From the NCBI RefSeq assembly GCF_001625215.2, contig NC_030381.2, positions 39,120,689 to 39,184,688 on the forward strand: a DNA stretch of 64,000 nt. Direction: 5' to 3'. Positions within the stretch are counted from its first letter, which is position 1; every line of letters begins with the position of its first letter. Both the position numbers and the translations under genes were made by a program. The notes beneath the pieces are model-generated. The model had not been told where the DNA came from and ran no database searches. It worked only from the letters and a program-made list of their open reading frames with translations. This DNA is from Daucus carota subsp. sativus (Eukaryota > Streptophyta > Magnoliopsida > Apiales > Apiaceae). Shown one piece after another: positions 54,701 through 63,285 of this stretch.

Positions 54701-56006
54701 TGGGATAAAATCGAACAACTTCATTCAGGCGAACATGAGTTTTGCTGAGTTGATAGGAGTATGGCTGTACTATTAGTAGGAATTATGGTCGGTTTTAAAA
54801 TTGAAGATCATCTATTACGAGTCGTTAGTCTTGTTTAAACTCGAGTTAAGTTGTGAATAAATCTGACCAACTAATTATAATCACCCGGCTATTATGGTCA
54901 ATCTTGTACGGTTTGAATTAAATCTAGGACAAATTGACTATTATATTATAATTGATCACGCATGTTCAATTTTGTTTATCAATAGTTTTGACTAGTCGGC
55001 TAAAAATATAATTGATCATAATTCCGTCGATTATATATACACATAACACTCAGTGTTCAGTGAAGCGGTTGGATTTACTGCTTGATCTTTTTCTCAAACC
55101 TAAAGCCGGTCAATATAATGATTTATTTTATATATAAATATTATCGATTTAGCTAAACATGTGCCTAAAACTAATCATCGTCGTCGATCATGTGAACTTT
55201 GATATTTTTTTGTTATAACCGATCAACGCTGACAGTTGAATTTTTTGTGGTTTCTAGTGTACAGTATACTACATTTCTCTGGCTCCAAAATGATAGGGCC
55301 CTGGTCCGAAGCGATAACTTCATTCCATGGGCTTGTGCCACTAAGATTGCTGTAATTCTTCATTTCAAATTAATGCTCATAAAGTCGGTTTGATGAAAAT
55401 ATCATCTAGCAAATTTTAATTAATTAATTAATAATTATTTTGGTCGAGTTTGATAAACAGATTTTAGATTGGGTTCTTTTGAATGTATTGTAATGTCGTT
55501 GACCGCGCAACACAGGTTAAATTTGTATTAATATGATATTGCTTGTTCAATATAATGATTAAGTTTGCATGTATTTATATATGTGTTTTTCTCAAAAGGT
55601 TTCTACATAATGAAATTGTTTGGATACTTATATTGAAGATATTTTTTTTTCCCGATATGAGACTTGAATTGACCCTATTCAATAATCTCTCTTCAATTCA
55701 AAAATCATCCAAAAACCTTCCCATATCAAAAAATTAGCACCCATAATTTTAGGATCAACTTCTTACTCATCGGTTTTGATACTACTTATTGGGTCGGCTC
55801 TTAGGTTGTGCAACACTCGTCAACTTTATATTAGTATGATATTGTACATTCTGGGCTATGGCTAAATCCCAGATTTATTATCGGGGTACTCTCAAAAGGC
55901 CTCCTACTCATACTAATGGAGTTATTACTTATTTGCCTGACAAATTTTATTTATCTTTGCATTTTGAAACTTGGGTTACACTCACTCAATAGTAATAATA
56001 ATGAAA
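51771..56006. other. Gene-poor spacer between the MYB gene and the Helitron
   Basis: No gene recognised in about 4.2 kb. Short frames (52875-53078, 55199-55393, 55543-55737) have no motif or support. The first few hundred bases should include distal MYB promoter. The rest is AT-rich and probably consists of old unrecognised repeats. Confidence 0.5.
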
Positions 56007-56393
56007 CTAGTAATTTTGCCCGCTACGCATGGGCGTTAATTTTCAAAAATTCCATATTCCATTTAAAATAATAATTTTGTAAATAAAATTTTAACAAATT
56101 ATCTCGCCACGATTTCCTTCATTTTTTAAACATACTATTTATTTTGTCATACTTTACTTACATCTCAATCAAACATAATTTTGAAAAATAAAGTTTCATC
56201 TTATGAGAAATATAAGAAATACTCTCGGTATTTTTATAAAAAATATGCTCACTATGTTGTTCTACTTTATTACATTTTCTTGTGAAAAATCTCTTTGAAT
56301 TTTATATGATTTAAATTTTTGAAAAATAACAATTTTATTGTATCAAAACACATCTGACATTACTTTCGTAAATTTATTTGTATCTATCAATTA

Positions 56394-56624
56394 CTCCCAC
56401 CATCCCATTTTAAAAAAATATGTCATGTTTTGACTTTAAGCGGTCAAATTAACCAATTTTTGACCAAGTATAAAAAATAAATTCGTTATTATTTTAAAAA
56501 ACTAAAAATTATGTTTTATAATATATTGTATGTACTTTATGATAACATTTTTTTTTTCTTTTGAAATTTGGTCAATTTGACTATTCAAAAGTCAAATAGG
56601 ACACTTAAAATGAGATGGAGGGAG
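56394..56624. mobile_element. Stowaway-type MITE nested in the Helitron
   Basis: Starts CTCCCACCATCCCATTTTAA and ends TTAAAATGAGATGGAGGGAG, near-perfect inverted copies, flanked by TA on both sides. Length is 231 bp. It lies about 390 bp inside the 3' end of the Helitron. Confidence 0.9.
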
Positions 56625-57436
56625 TATTAATTATGAATCTCCATTTTATATCCAATTTTTTCTTTTCACACTCTCTTTATATTTCTTTTTTATAACTCAA
56701 AGTCCTCCATAAAATAAGAAAATCGGGTCGAATCAAAAATTAATATTCACTTAATACAGTTTTAATGTTCAAGTGTAGGAAGCTTCACTTTAGATTTGAA
56801 CAAGTCAAAAATGTTATATAATGTATTATTGTTATATTTTAAATTTTAAATATTAAATATTCTCTTCATTTCATTACAATTTATTTACATATCAATCAAA
56901 AATAATTTTTTAAGGGTAGGTTCTCTTTTAAGAGAAATATTCATTTTTCTTTGTGGTATTTTCCCTCCGAATTCTTAATTTTTAAATTTTTTTGTAAAGG
57001 TAATAAACTTTTGCTAAAAAAAAAAAATGAATGTTGGCTTAAAGTTCCCCGTACATGTACGTGTGTCCCAAAACTAAATATCCAAGAAGAGCAACTAATA
57101 TTTGTGTCTGTCTTTGTATCTGTCTATGGTAAGAAAATCAATGTCAGCTTGGAACCAATAACAAATGGTCCTATTGCAAGTAACAATGCTTAATTTAGGG
57201 TATGCTCTGAAATATATTGAAATGCTGCTACTGTAGTCTGTAGACACCATAGAATCCCAATGGACCAATTTGGTTAAAAAAATCTCTCTTCTAGGCTTGT
57301 TCTGTAAAGAGTAAAATGCCTGACATGTTTTAGTGACCAGATGCACAGGAAAGACAATAAGAACAAACCTATCCAAACACATACATGCATACATATGTGA
57401 GTAAGTGTGTACTGTGTACATTAGTCTACCAGCTTG

Positions 57437-57604
57437 TTGTCTGTTAGGAAGTTGCAAGTAACGGCAAAGTATCCAGCTATCATTGGTAGTCCTCAGAGAG
57501 CACTCTGTACTTTTTATGAATGGGCGCTGGTGTCGCGTTTCATAGAAACCCATCAGTCTTGCAATGACACTGGGTGTCTCTTCTTTGGTTTCCATAGCTT
57601 TTCA
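57437..57604 (-). pseudogene. Captured fragment of a DUF3741/TRM (LONGIFOLIA-like) gene
   Basis: The minus strand reads METKEETPSVIARLMGF from 57595, the conserved V/I-ARLMG motif at the start of TRM/DUF3741-DUF4378 proteins, which act at cortical microtubules. After about 19 residues the frame shifts by one; the other frame then reads PAPIHKKYRVLSEDYQ, also typical of that region. Only this N-terminal part is present. It is the most 3' gene fragment in the Helitron. Confidence 0.7.
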
Positions 57605-58703
57605 CAAGCTTTTAATTAGTTGCCTCCAGAAAAATTAAACTCAAACACTGCACAGATAAGGAATGCAATCCTGTAAGCTCATTAAACATACAGAGAAGAA
57701 CTATAAACATACTAAACCAAATTCAACATTATCTCTTATGTTAAATGAGAAACAGAAACAGAAACACATTTGGTTTATTCAAATTTATAATTCAAAACAG
57801 TAATCAGTAATACCCCGATTACCTTGTCATCCTCCACTGTACAATCATTGCTTCTTGAAATAAAACGTATAGTCTAAAATCTTTCAATGTGCCCAAGCCC
57901 TCCATTCCTTAATATATCAATTCAGATCAGACAGGACAAAAAGATAAGCACCACGTAAAATAAAGTATATAGAGGCCATCTTAGTTTCATATTTAGCAAA
58001 TATTCACAAATGGAAATCTCTTCCACCCTACTCCAATAGGCCAAACTTTCCAGCTCAAACTACCATCTATAATCGCCTTACTTTTCGTTCTTTGTTTATC
58101 AGAACTCAAGCAAGCAATTGCCACCCAGGGTATAACATATTAACATAACAGAACGCTCTTACCAACTGTGCTCAAAACCCAATCCTAAAATTATTATTTC
58201 GTAATGAGCCTTTCAATCCATTTTTGATCTATAAAAGCGCAAAACCTGTAAAAATTATAAATTTTAACATCTAATAAGCAAGCATGATATGTTCCATGTT
58301 AATCAAATAACTGAAAATACAAAAAGCAAATCCAAGACACTCTCATAAGATTTCAATTCGTCCATATGGAGACATTTTTCAAATTATATATCTAAAACGT
58401 GGACATTTTTCAGTCCAATAGCATAACGACACTCCTGTTACAGAACAGAGCAACAAATGCTAAGTTAAAAAAGCAAACCTTCAAGGCAAGATCAAAAAGA
58501 CGTACAACTATATTTACATCGAAGTTTATTTTATATATAACCGCATTTTAAATAAATGTAAAAATCTTACTCTCTTCTATTCTCAGCATTCAAGTTACCT
58601 TTGGACTTTGGAGTCTCCAAGTACAAAAAACTGATGGTAGTGAACCAATGCACTGATTTGAATTAGTCTTAATTGATTGAACTTGGTAGGCTGGCAGGTT
58701 GGT

Positions 58704-59128
58704 CTATTTGCTCATATGCTCCCCAATCTTTGAAACGGCTTTATTTGCAGCATCGAGCTTGGACTTGATCTCCTCAGCATTTTCACCACCTATTGCTGTC
58801 CTCAAGCTCGACACAGCAGTCTCAATCTCTGTAACCACCTCTGATGGTATCCTATCCTTGTACTCGCCCAAGCTCTTTTCGATGCTATATATAGCTGTGT
58901 CAGCACTATTTATGAGGTCAATCAATTCTTTCCTCTCCTGATGTATTTGAGAATGTAAATCTGCTTCCCTGACCATATTCTTCAGAAAGCCCCCCAGATG
59001 ATTTTATCGTAATCTGCTGCTCTTTTCCAGTTGCCTTATCCTTTGCAGAAACAGTAACATACCATTGGCATCAATATCAAATGTCACTTCAACTTGTGAC
59101 AATCCTCTGGGTGCAGGTGGTAGACCCG
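58704..59128 (-). pseudogene. Captured fragment of mitochondrial Hsp70 (mtHSC70), C-terminal part
   Basis: The minus strand encodes the end of the substrate-binding domain ([20 protein letters not shown], then [19 protein letters not shown]) and the helical lid (MVREADLHSQIHQERKELID to KAVSKIGEHMSK). The [22 protein letters not shown] run is that of mitochondrial Hsp70. One base is missing near 59065 and a short internal deletion lies near 58980. The family's Gly-rich tail is replaced by an early stop. The ATPase domain is absent. Confidence 0.88.
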
Positions 59129-59630
59129 AGAGTTCTTATTTTGTATGATGGTTTCACTCAAAAAAGTGCTTCCACTACAATGTTTTACCACGTGGAACAA
59201 TGTTTTTCCACTCCACATGAATTGATGAACATAAATCAATATAATTTTTCAGAATTAAAATTTAAAATTAAATTCGTATTTATATGTCTCACAAAATAAA
59301 GTAAAGTTGATATAGTAAAATTATATTTTCACAACATTTATTATGATTATATAAAATTATATATTATATTGTTAAAAAAAATATTATAAGATCATTGAGT
59401 AAATATATACAATACATTTTTATGCAACATTGAACAATCATCAAACAGTAACATAAGCATTTTCGATGAATTTCTGATTTGCAGATCAATGAATAAGAGT
59501 CCCAAAATAGCCTTTTAAAAGACTACTGAGAACTTATTCAAAAAAAAAAAAGACTACTGAGAAACTTAGCAGGAGAGAAAAGACAACAGTCAGTGAAACT
59601 CATACAAAAAATAATCAAGAGAGAACTCAC
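59129..59630. other. Spacer inside the Helitron between Hsp70 and eIF5B fragments
   Basis: AT-rich, no homology recognised. The break in Hsp70 similarity at about 59128 is abrupt, which marks a capture junction or a later insertion. Confidence 0.5.
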
Positions 59631-59900
59631 CTTAACACGGAGTTCCTTCACTGGATGAGGAGTCAATAAAGCTCGTATCGTCGTAGCAATAGGTCCCTAT
59701 AAAAGAATCCACATTTAGTTCCCTGACATGTGGCATCCATCAGCAACTTTAAAACTTAACTACATACAATTACAATTTAAGTTAAATACCTGCAAACCGC
59801 AGACAACTATCTGGTCACCTTCATGAAGGACACCATTGACCAACACCACATCAATTGTAGTTCGGTGACCTTCAATGACCTTAACCTCCAAAACGGTGAA
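59631..59900 (-). pseudogene. Captured fragment of translation initiation factor eIF5B, two exons
   Basis: Exon 59790-59900 encodes [18 protein letters not shown] and [19 protein letters not shown]; exon 59631-59696 encodes GPIATTIRALLTPHPVKELRVK. Both are phase 0 with sound GT..AG borders, and the intron between them is kept. This is the start of domain II of eIF5B, just after the GTPase domain. The parent protein has over 1000 residues; only about 59 are here. Copying with introns shows capture at DNA level, not through RNA. Confidence 0.88.
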
Positions 59901-59983
59901 CTGACAAAACAATTCAAAACATTTTCAGACATGAACAGTTAAAATCTTTTGAGAACTGAGCAGAAACTAACGAAGAAAGTTAC

Positions 59984-60262
59984 CTGCACTACATCACTTT
60001 ATGAAATGATAGGTAAGCTTTGGAAAATTCCTGGGCTGTAACATATCTGTAAGGTTCATCCTTATGCAGCCAACATTGCTTCTGATCATGTTTTGATGTT
60101 ACCTACAAAACATATTAGATTATGTTCCGTAAAACTCATTTTGTACGTGCCCTTGAAAATATATCTTATATAAAAAAGGTACACTTACTTCTTGCAAGAA
60201 GTCTGCGACACCTTTCCTCTCAAGACATTTAAAACCCATTGATTCAAAAAACTCAAGCACAT
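59984..60262 (-). pseudogene. Captured fragment of a PDR-type ABCG transporter, two exons
   Basis: On the minus strand the exon ending at 60189 encodes [24 protein letters not shown], and the exon 59984-60102 continues VTSKHDQKQCWLHKDEPYRY and VTAQEFSKAYLSFHK. This is the conserved region after the first nucleotide-binding domain of PDR proteins. The intron is kept and the phases agree. The second exon runs into a stop soon after the conserved part, at the junction towards the eIF5B fragment. The two parent exons adjoin in real PDR genes. Confidence 0.85.
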
Positions 60263-60320
60263 TTTACCAAAACATTATCTTTCCCAAAACTTATAAACAG
60301 CACATAATCATGATTAGTAC

Positions 60321-61250
60321 CTGTCCAAAGCTTTTCTCTTTTAATAATTTCTTCAGAGAAGTCTCCAACCTGCAAAAACAGAAAGAAGACATGTGTCAAA
60401 TAAAGCATCACATAAACTATGTGTTCTTAATCAACATATCTTTCTATAACTCAAAGTCTAAAATTTAGAAAAAAACAGCTTTGAGTTTCTCCTAGAACTT
60501 ATATCAAATAGTTGGGCTGCACTAATAAAACACAAGCATCCATCTTAAAAACAAACTCACTATATATCAAACAACATATATCTCAAGCGGTGAAACTGAA
60601 ACTAAAAAAAAAAAAGGCAAAACAAATAAAATTTTGAGCAAAATACTAACAAATATACAGTAAATGTAATTAAAGAAAATAGAATTAAGAAATGGAGAGG
60701 GGTTAGAGAGATTACCAGCTCCGGCGAGAGAGAGATTAAATTGGAGAATCTTGAAACCCTAGAAAAAGGGGAACACGATAGAGAGAGAAGAAGCACAAAT
60801 CGTATCTCTTCCATTAGAAGATCACTACTCACTCCCCTGTAACACACAAAAATTCACAGAATTAGTACATAAATTGAGAAAAAGAACAACCTAAATCAAT
60901 AAAAGAACAAACAGCTGCAACATCAAAACACAAATATCTGCAAGAAAAAAACATATATGTGCCGGAGTCAATTACCTGCCTCAATGGTCAATTACATATA
61001 TATTAGAAAAGAGGGACATGGTAAGGGGGAGAGAGAGAGTCGGACGGAAACACACGAAGAAACGGAAAGAGAGTGTAGAGAAAGCCGGGGGAGAGAGAGA
61101 TAGACAGAGGGAGGAAGAGAGAGATTCGGGTAGAGGGAGAGAGAGAGAGAGAGAGGGACATATGATACATGGAGCAAACGGCTGTGTGAGGCTAGAGAGA
61201 AAAGAAATATATCTGAGTGAGTTTGAATTCAAATTCAAAATATAACATGA
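60321..61250 (-). other. 5' part of the Helitron insert: unidentified exon-like pieces and a pyrimidine-rich tract
   Basis: On the minus strand an acceptor-like TTTTTGCAG precedes an open VGDFSEEIIKREKLWT stretch (about 60321-60368) ending at a GT donor; its source is unknown. At about 60730-60812 a frame starts MEEIRFVLLLSLSCSPFSRV and covers CTAGGGTTTC, a telo-box often found in leaders of translation-related genes. At 61018-61165 a GAGAGAG tract (CT-rich on the minus strand) resembles a plant core promoter or leader. Together this may be the promoter end of a captured gene. Confidence 0.4.
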
Positions 61251-61560
61251 TAGAAAGCAACGACGTGATATGAATTTGAATTTTGAAATTGAAATCAGCA
61301 GAAATAAGAGTTTTATGATGATACTTGCACAAAAAGAAGCTGCAGTTTTGTTTGTTTTTTGAAATAGTGAAGAAGAGATGGAAGGCGTAAAGGTTTGAGT
61401 TGGACCATGCTTGGATTGCTACTGTATCCATTCTATTTTAGTGAAATAAAGAAAATGAGAGTACGCGAATATCGAGAAAATTGCACGCGGGATGGTGGAA
61501 ATCAACGAACCATGCGGCATCTTTTGTCTTTTATTAATATTTAATTTAATGAAATATAGA

Positions 61561-62502
61561 TTTTAGAAGTATTTAAAACATATCATTCTAGCAAGTTGGA
61601 ATGGCATTTTATGTAATTAAGCATCAACTCTTGGGGTAGGGGGTGTAAAAAAGACTTCCAAAAGGCAACAGGATTTATAATCTAAAGGATAAAGGATAAA
61701 GGATGAGTGATCATACAAAAATTCATGAAATAAAAGATAATATGAAAAAATAATTAAATGTAAGTGAGTTCAATTTTGTTTTTTGTTATGAAAAAAAATT
61801 GAATAAGTATTCATTCCAAAACATGCGGATTCAATATTTAATTTAAATACTGAACAAAATAAAACAATTAGAATAACAAATATTATACACATTATCTGCA
61901 ATCAATTTCAATGTACATTTAATTTCATGTTAATGAAGTTATAAATCCCATTTGTTAACGGGTGGATAAGATAGAGATAGTTGAACGAGAAAAAATTTAG
62001 TTGTTCAAATCATTTGTTTGCTTAAAAATGGATTAAATGACTAAAAAATTTGCTGGAACAGGACAGCTGGAGGACGGGGCTACATAACATAACCGGATGT
62101 GTGTTAATTTATCATATCTTTGTTCTAATATAACTTATTGTATCATAATATATGTATGATTACAAAACTAATGATATAAACAATTAATTTTCATACAAAA
62201 CTATACAAAAAAGCTTTGAGAAAACAAAGCGACTTTACTCATATTGATAATTGCATTTTAAAATCGCTTCATTCACCATGAGTACGAAAAACAAACGTGA
62301 ATTCAAGAATGAAGAATCCCATATGAACCGGGCCTTTAAACCACCAAGGACATCCAAGAACAAGACTGCAATGTCAACTGGACCAGTCCATTGGGCTTTC
62401 AACTAAAGGCCCAATATCGGCGTTACCGAGACGTTTGACATGTAAATATCAGTATCCAACTTGACAAAACTCAAAAAGAGCAGCAGACGAGAGTGAAGCA
62501 TA
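61561..62502. other. Spacer between the Helitron and the ERdj3B gene
   Basis: AT-rich, no coding region found. The right part (from about 62300) becomes less AT-rich and is probably distal promoter of the J-protein gene. Confidence 0.55.
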
Positions 62503-62752: not shown

Positions 62753-63285
62753 ATGCTGCAGCGAAGATCGAAGCTGATTTATCTGTTATGCCTGTTCTCA
62801 TATGCTCTCTCTGCAATCGCTGCGTAAGTGTTGATTCTACTGTGTGTTTTAGTGCGTGTTTGTATTTATGTGTAATTGGATGAAAATGTGATGCAGAAAG
62901 AGTTATTATGATATATTACAAGTGCCGAAAGGCGCGCCAGATGATCAGATTAAGCGAGCGTATCGGAAGCTAGCGTTGAAGTATCATCCTGATAAGAATC
63001 AAGGCAATGAGGAAGCGAATAAGAAGTTTGCGGAGATTAATAATGGTACAATTTTGTTATTTAGGTTTTGATTAGTGATGTGGATTTTAGGTATTTTGCT
63101 GTAGATGATTGTGAATTAGTGTGCTTATTGTTTGTTGTGGCGAATGATTTAGCTTATGAGGTGTTGTCGGATAATGAGAAGAGGGGAATTTATGATCGGT
63201 ATGGAGAGGAGGGACTTAAGCAGCATGCTGCAAATGGCGGAAGAGGTGGAGGTGGCGGTATGAACATTCAGGACATTTTTAGCCA
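62753..63285 (+). CDS. ERdj3B-type ER-luminal DnaJ protein, partial (runs off the window)
   Basis: Co-chaperone that feeds substrates to BiP in the ER. Exons 62753-62823, 62897-63045 and 63153-63285 splice in phase; the gene continues beyond 64000. The N-terminus [20 protein letters not shown] is a signal peptide, probably cut before [12 protein letters not shown]. The J domain follows ([19 protein letters not shown]) with the catalytic HPD loop, [33 protein letters not shown] and the start of a Gly-rich region ([16 protein letters not shown]). The order and wording match plant ERDJ3B, which binds BiP within the SDF2-ERdj3B complex in immunity and heat tolerance. The remaining exons should encode the substrate-binding domain with its Cys pairs. 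A perfect ERSE lies upstream. Confidence 0.93.

Follow-up and report, generated by a model that had tools for sequence, protein, structure and literature searches.

The window analysed here is a 64,000-nucleotide stretch of the carrot genome (Daucus carota subsp. sativus, contig NC_030381.2, positions 39,120,689 to 39,184,688). Its minus strand contains an element (Table 1) that we identify, with high confidence, as a non-autonomous member of a medium-copy Helitron family: it was moved by the RepHel of relatives with the same 5' end, and DNA from several loci has gathered between its ends. We call it non-autonomous because a six-frame domain search detects no RepHel or other Helitron protein domain within it. 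An earlier note, made from the sequence alone, had placed a Helitron at 56007-61560; the element is real and its 3' end is at 56007, but the proposed 5' end was 129 bp off and has to be moved to 61689. The genome searches described below covered 441,086,747 bases in 11 contigs (C1, C2 and so on), and only the best candidates of each search were scored; labels such as L037 designate genomic loci that were fetched.

The 3' end of the element recurs in the genome. A GCCC...GGGC motif precedes the terminal CTAG, 11 nt from the end. A 31-base pattern of this end, searched with at most 3 mismatches, is present at 18 genomic sites including this element (17 others), and the reversed-pattern control gives none. 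The same identical variant is found at 7 of the 18 sites, while three sites read CCAG or CTTG. The terminus is followed by T in all seven 3' ends that were viewed (the window included), two of which have an altered CTAG, and similarity to other loci begins at 56006/56007.

Regarding the 5' end, 40 of 52 candidates were scored; among the 39 other genomic matches to the end region, 32 end at 61689-61693 and the remaining seven at 61685-61714. All 21 rows that were viewed, the window among them, have A|TC at the same base, and the sequences outside it are unlike. A 26-base pattern of this end has six genomic hits, including itself, and none in the control. The boundary at 61560 was rejected because no fetched locus starts there and the copies align past it, to about 61690: a sister element at C1:44.43 Mb matches both sides of 61560 (60901-61519 and 61577-61691), and in 19 other viewed copies the match covers 61601-61690 and stops at 61690-61700. 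We place the 5' end at 61689, next to an A that reads as T at 61690 of the plus strand, because this is where the matches of the copies end. The A|TC is by itself weak evidence, since nine ATC triplets are present on the minus strand of the 360 bp that were checked. In a shuffle control of the terminal-pattern search, the 5' pattern had two chance hits and the 3' pattern none in 0.86 Mb. Short matches of loci L037, L041 and L061 to 61660-61699 were dropped, as the terminal pattern was not found in these loci. The subterminal region 60901-61589 is also shared, more distantly, with C3:46.31, C8:25.85 and C5:0.805 Mb.

The insertion site is also that of a Helitron: A is found at 56006 and T at 61690, the target reads AATGAAA|TAAAGG, with a single A|T site, and there is no target duplication. 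Terminal inverted repeats are absent, the inverted ends agreeing at 6 of 30 positions. Directly outside the 5' end, at 61690-61703, are two extra ATCCTTT units (ATCCTTTATCCTTT|ATCCTTTAG on the minus strand), missing from the other 20 viewed copies, which are either a product of slippage or target sequence.

The earlier note had suggested that the genome be searched with the end sequences for sister Helitrons, and such loci exist. Both ends are paired within 10 kb at three other loci: C1:44431928-44433173, C3:21471472-21476538 (5.1 kb) and C1:7144188-7154165 (10.0 kb). Assuming uniform placement, about 0.01 pairs would be expected within 12 kb, for three others observed. The first of these loci is the 1.2 kb sister already mentioned, which has both ends and the 60901-61691 region and none of the gene fragments; its 3' end is ATAG, not CTAG. 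Of the 39 other 5' ends, at least 7 have RepHel (PF14214) encoded 3.3-4.5 kb inside and on their own strand, where about 0.04 would be expected; this is a lower bound, 150 of 344 candidates having been scored and the seven loci having been picked by eye among those of the 168 matches that were listed. Autonomous partners, in which RepHel lies behind the same 5' end, thus probably exist. At C2:19490718-19532633, a 3' end and a 5' end on the same strand are 41.9 kb apart; the two could belong to one very large Helitron or to a nested one, or lie together by chance.

From its 5' to its 3' side (minus strand), the interior of the element is made up of a leader-like module, a PDR piece, an eIF5B piece, a dispersed piece, an Hsp70 piece, an SH2-like piece, a 115-bp piece, a TRM-like piece and dispersed sequence, up to the 3' end. 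The five coding assignments (PDR, eIF5B, Hsp70, SH2-like and TRM) are all in the Helitron sense. The earlier claim that the Helitron holds at least four host gene fragments with introns kept is borne out by Pfam and by alignment of each fragment to its parent gene: the PDR, eIF5B, Hsp70 and TRM-like pieces match separate loci, on C4, on C8 and at two places on C7 that are 3.5 Mb apart. The retention of PDR and eIF5B introns shows that it is DNA that was captured. As judged from these alignments, each named locus is the best match and a candidate donor rather than a proven one, and paralogues of several donors also match.

The assignments are not equally firm. The Hsp70 domain is detected in the element itself (Pfam E=2.9e-19), and its PDB matches are DnaK and mitochondrial stress-70 chains; the eIF5B donor locus has GTP_EFTU and IF-2 domains, and the PDR donor locus ABC2_membrane and PDR_assoc domains. 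That the factor is eIF5B, and that the Hsp70 is the mitochondrial one rather than another paralogue, is in part our own presumption. The weakest assignment is TRM: the Pfam VARLMGL match of the donor (E=0.016) falls short of the curated cut-off, as does that of the element (E=0.042); the name also leans on a motif that we take to be characteristic. Similarly, the SH2 match of locus L029, from a short Pfam query, does not reach the cut-off (E=0.029), PDB searches with the SH2-like exon gave no match, and here too the name leans on what we presume to be the motif. Pfam hits found beside the pieces, namely Pyridoxal_deC (L058), GH1 (L057, L061) and kinase (L013), are regarded as neighbouring context and not counted as captures.

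Table 1. Features of the carrot Helitron and of its parts, in window coordinates, from the 5' to the 3' end of the element.
Feature	Position	Strand	Description
Whole non-autonomous Helitron	56007..61689	-	5,683 bp, common termini
5' terminal region	61590..61689	-	A|TCCTTTAGATTATAAATCCTGTTGCC..., 39 other genomic matches
Helitron 5' subterminal region	60901..61589	-	Shared with 1.2 kb sister C1:44.43 Mb, 84.6% over 60901-61519
54-bp piece	60811..60864		96% identical to C3:46.307 and C8:25.849 Mb
Leader-like module	60261..60820	-	GT...AG intron-like signals; multicopy; closest C3:60223585, Kimura two-parameter distance (K2P) 0.053 over 448 sites
PDR-type ABC transporter fragment	60001..60265	-	Two partial exons and intron; closest C7:40484260-40484536, 90.3% ungapped (257 sites)
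eIF5B fragment	59426..60006	-	Exons with two complete introns and a third in part; closest C4:37530501-37531060, 94.2% ungapped (537 sites)
Dispersed piece	59229..59423		84% to C9:43417618-43417811
Mitochondrial-type Hsp70 fragment	58543..59135	-	C-terminal coding end, stop, 3' untranslated region (UTR); closest over whole length C7:36974393-36975070, 96.2% ungapped (585 sites)
SH2-like gene piece	58191..58540	-	Exon end and intron; multicopy source, ~91% to C2:13.28 Mb
115-bp piece	58079..58193		79% to C3:8872194-8872296
TRM/DUF3741-like gene start and upstream noncoding DNA	57485..58078	-	METKEETPSVIARLMGF; ATG 57595; closest C8:22215657-22216254, 93.5% ungapped (587 sites)
Longest open frame of the element	57098..57595	-	166 codons; TRM ATG start, 1-bp-gap frameshift, on into dispersed piece
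Dispersed pieces	57025..57479		Best match 3' side of protein-kinase exon, C6:29.28 Mb
Nested miniature inverted-repeat transposable element (MITE) with TA ends	56392..56626		Inverted ends
3' terminal region	56007..56128	-	Hairpin motif GCCCATGCGTAGCGGGC at 56018-56034, 11 nt, CTAG|T terminus at 56007

The pieces at 60.3-61.2 kb, in which the earlier note saw a possible fifth donor, are now better accounted for. A simple fifth donor is ruled out there: most of this interval is either the 5' region of the Helitron itself (60901-61689) or the multicopy leader-like module (60261-60820). By a comparison of positions made by eye, relatives of this module lie 1.5-6.4 kb from five of the seven Helitron 3' ends with the identical variant, side and strand both being correct. 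In Pfam searches of copies of this module, L037, searched on both strands, had only sub-cut-off matches, and L039 and L041, searched on the minus strand only, had none. A better candidate, and probably the fifth donor, is the source of the SH2-like piece. The leader-like module also occurs in tandem, with a spacing of about 1.6 kb, at L047-L049 (C6:40.365-40.370 Mb) and L042-L043 (C8:5.81 Mb). As for the rest of the interior, 59142-59228 had no match in the genome comparisons, five loci have matches that all break off exactly at 57479, and the nested MITE is, we assume, Stowaway-like.

The noncoding parts of the captured DNA give an idea of its age. The K2P is 0.061 for the eIF5B introns, 0.061 for the Hsp70 3' UTR, 0.082 for the TRM upstream sequence and 0.163 for the PDR intron (82 sites). 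Substitution rates in plants are 0.7-1.3e-8 per site per year, at which distances of 0.06-0.08 correspond to roughly 2-6 million years. Four joints between pieces were examined: the leader and PDR pieces share AAAAT, the PDR and eIF5B pieces share CAT, and fillers of 2 nt and 5 nt separate Hsp70 from the SH2-like piece and TRM from 57479, respectively. We propose that the pieces would have been joined over several steps, and that the joining may have occurred through template switching or end-joining in rolling-circle transposition, or during the repair of breaks in the element itself.

Several observations weigh against our main reading. The hairpin is short, and its DNA is no stabler than its shuffles (folding z -0.47, 64 of 200 shuffles being as good), so that the 3' end is supported by its recurrence and not by energy. 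Most ends are unpaired, since a comparison of 18 other 3' ends with the 39 5' ends found elsewhere gave three pairs and the one at 41.9 kb. The best-scored candidates include no second copy of the mosaic, and for this reason transposition after capture is not demonstrated. The joined flanks matched no clean unoccupied site in this genome, the repeat matches of the left flank ending before the joint or at most 4 bases from it. Paralogues of the donors match too: for Hsp70, C9:9.467 Mb (88-95%, in split pieces), for the TRM upstream sequence, C8:3.24 Mb (90%), and for PDR, C6:39.61 Mb (80%). Last, the PDR intron has diverged more than the other noncoding parts pooled (Fisher p=0.015, in one unplanned test); this excess may come from an older capture or from a donor copy that was not sampled. 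The locus C8:3.24 Mb was not retained as a second source of the TRM upstream sequence: it is a paralogous locus, since its similarity to the donor goes beyond the captured stretch. The left flank itself (55806-55990) is one copy of a dispersed repeat whose family members are about 72% identical and in some places form pairs about 420 bp apart.

The absence of a second mosaic copy among the scored candidates is also what one would see if the fragments had entered a Helitron that was already inserted, as filler DNA during break repair, in which case the mosaic never transposed. We regard this as possible, although doubtful. The four joints examined, at which the pieces share a few bases or are separated by 2-5 nt of filler, would fit such a process, and the nested MITE is indeed a later local insertion. 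Against it, passages of Dong et al. 2011 (PMC3288121) report stepwise capture of multiple fragments by transposing maize Helitrons, and the modules 60261-60820 and 57400-57479/60811-60864 are also found in or near other members of the carrot family.

Another question is whether the captured DNA is of any use. The Helitron could be a gene-assembly unit: the leader-like module, which related Helitrons share, would drive a chimeric transcript that runs through pieces of up to five genes, all in the same sense, and is spliced; we consider both this and the transcription of the mosaic as a functional chimeric gene to be improbable. It is true that the five coding assignments are in the Helitron sense with the donor splice signals kept, that the leader-like module, with an ATG at 60814, is upstream, that the PDR and eIF5B exon pieces, which are partial, are free of stops, and that the 166-codon frame which starts at the TRM ATG is long (6 of 500 elements simulated with an order-2 Markov model have a frame of at least 166 codons). 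However, this frame was noticed post hoc and does not stay open in the related C6 locus, the TRM piece is frameshifted, and the Hsp70 piece is interrupted. The latter has coding gaps of 1, 11 and 81 bp, the last one between AGCAAA repeats; the first two sum to 12, which restores the frame, yet a stop lies between them, and the frame is open only from 59003. The coding pieces are partial, and no protein function is demonstrated. If the gene-assembly reading were true, it would give a new RNA, perhaps a 166-codon chimeric protein from the TRM ATG, or a source of small RNA acting on the donor genes.

That the locus is a segmental duplication or a mosaic pseudogene cluster with coincidental Helitron-like ends is most unlikely: the SH2-like, leader and 57025-57479 pieces are themselves multicopy, but the best donor matches lie at four distant places on three contigs (C4, C7 twice, and C8), the breakpoints are clean, both ends are termini common to many loci, and the paired-end loci already contradict it. 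The earlier note would have given up the Helitron had no other copy shared both ends, or had the fragments been adjacent in an unrelated duplication; in fact both ends are common to other loci and the donors are scattered over C4, C7 and C8.

The multi-donor Helitron that we describe resembles those of other plants. According to passages of Dong et al. 2011 (PMC3288121), a single maize Helitron can hold gene fragments from different chromosomes, and stepwise acquisition is proposed; 82.1% of helA elements have 1-5 fragments, and one putative autonomous element has eight, so that the four or five donors of the carrot element are within the maize range. Stepwise multi-gene capture is also covered in parts of a review (PMC13317346). 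In contrast with the maize elements, ours belongs to another family and another host, and since a single mosaic copy is seen, it is not possible to deduce from intermediates in which order the captures took place. In rice, the Mothra Helitrons, described with a RepHel sister family in sections of PMC4683698, have a TC 5' end and a CTAG 3' end like the carrot element, and a hairpin near the 3' end, where the carrot element has its recurrent GCCC...GGGC motif; they are likewise probably mobilised by relatives with common termini. They differ by their blocs of tandem repeats and by a mother element that encodes an RPA-like protein, and those sections describe no gene capture by Mothra. In carrot, a curated Helitron set served for the repeat annotation of the DH1 v.3 assembly, as stated in part of PMC10581907. 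Among the papers listed in our literature searches, none was on a gene-capturing Helitron of carrot, which is not proof of absence. A DnaJ domain is encoded at 62901-63044 of the window (plus strand, E=2.9e-19), about 1.2 kb past the 5' end of the Helitron, which places the element a short distance upstream of what is probably a DnaJ gene.

The element is a clean yet ordinary case of a well-known process, gene capture by Helitrons; the analysis brings a corrected 5' boundary and a better account of the formerly unexplained pieces at 60.3-61.2 kb. It provides a well-bounded multi-donor capture in a plant that is far from maize, with the best-matching donor loci, the likely autonomous partners and a capture-free sister all in one genome. 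A comparison across the whole family could put the captures in order and test for an exchange of leader modules among Helitrons.

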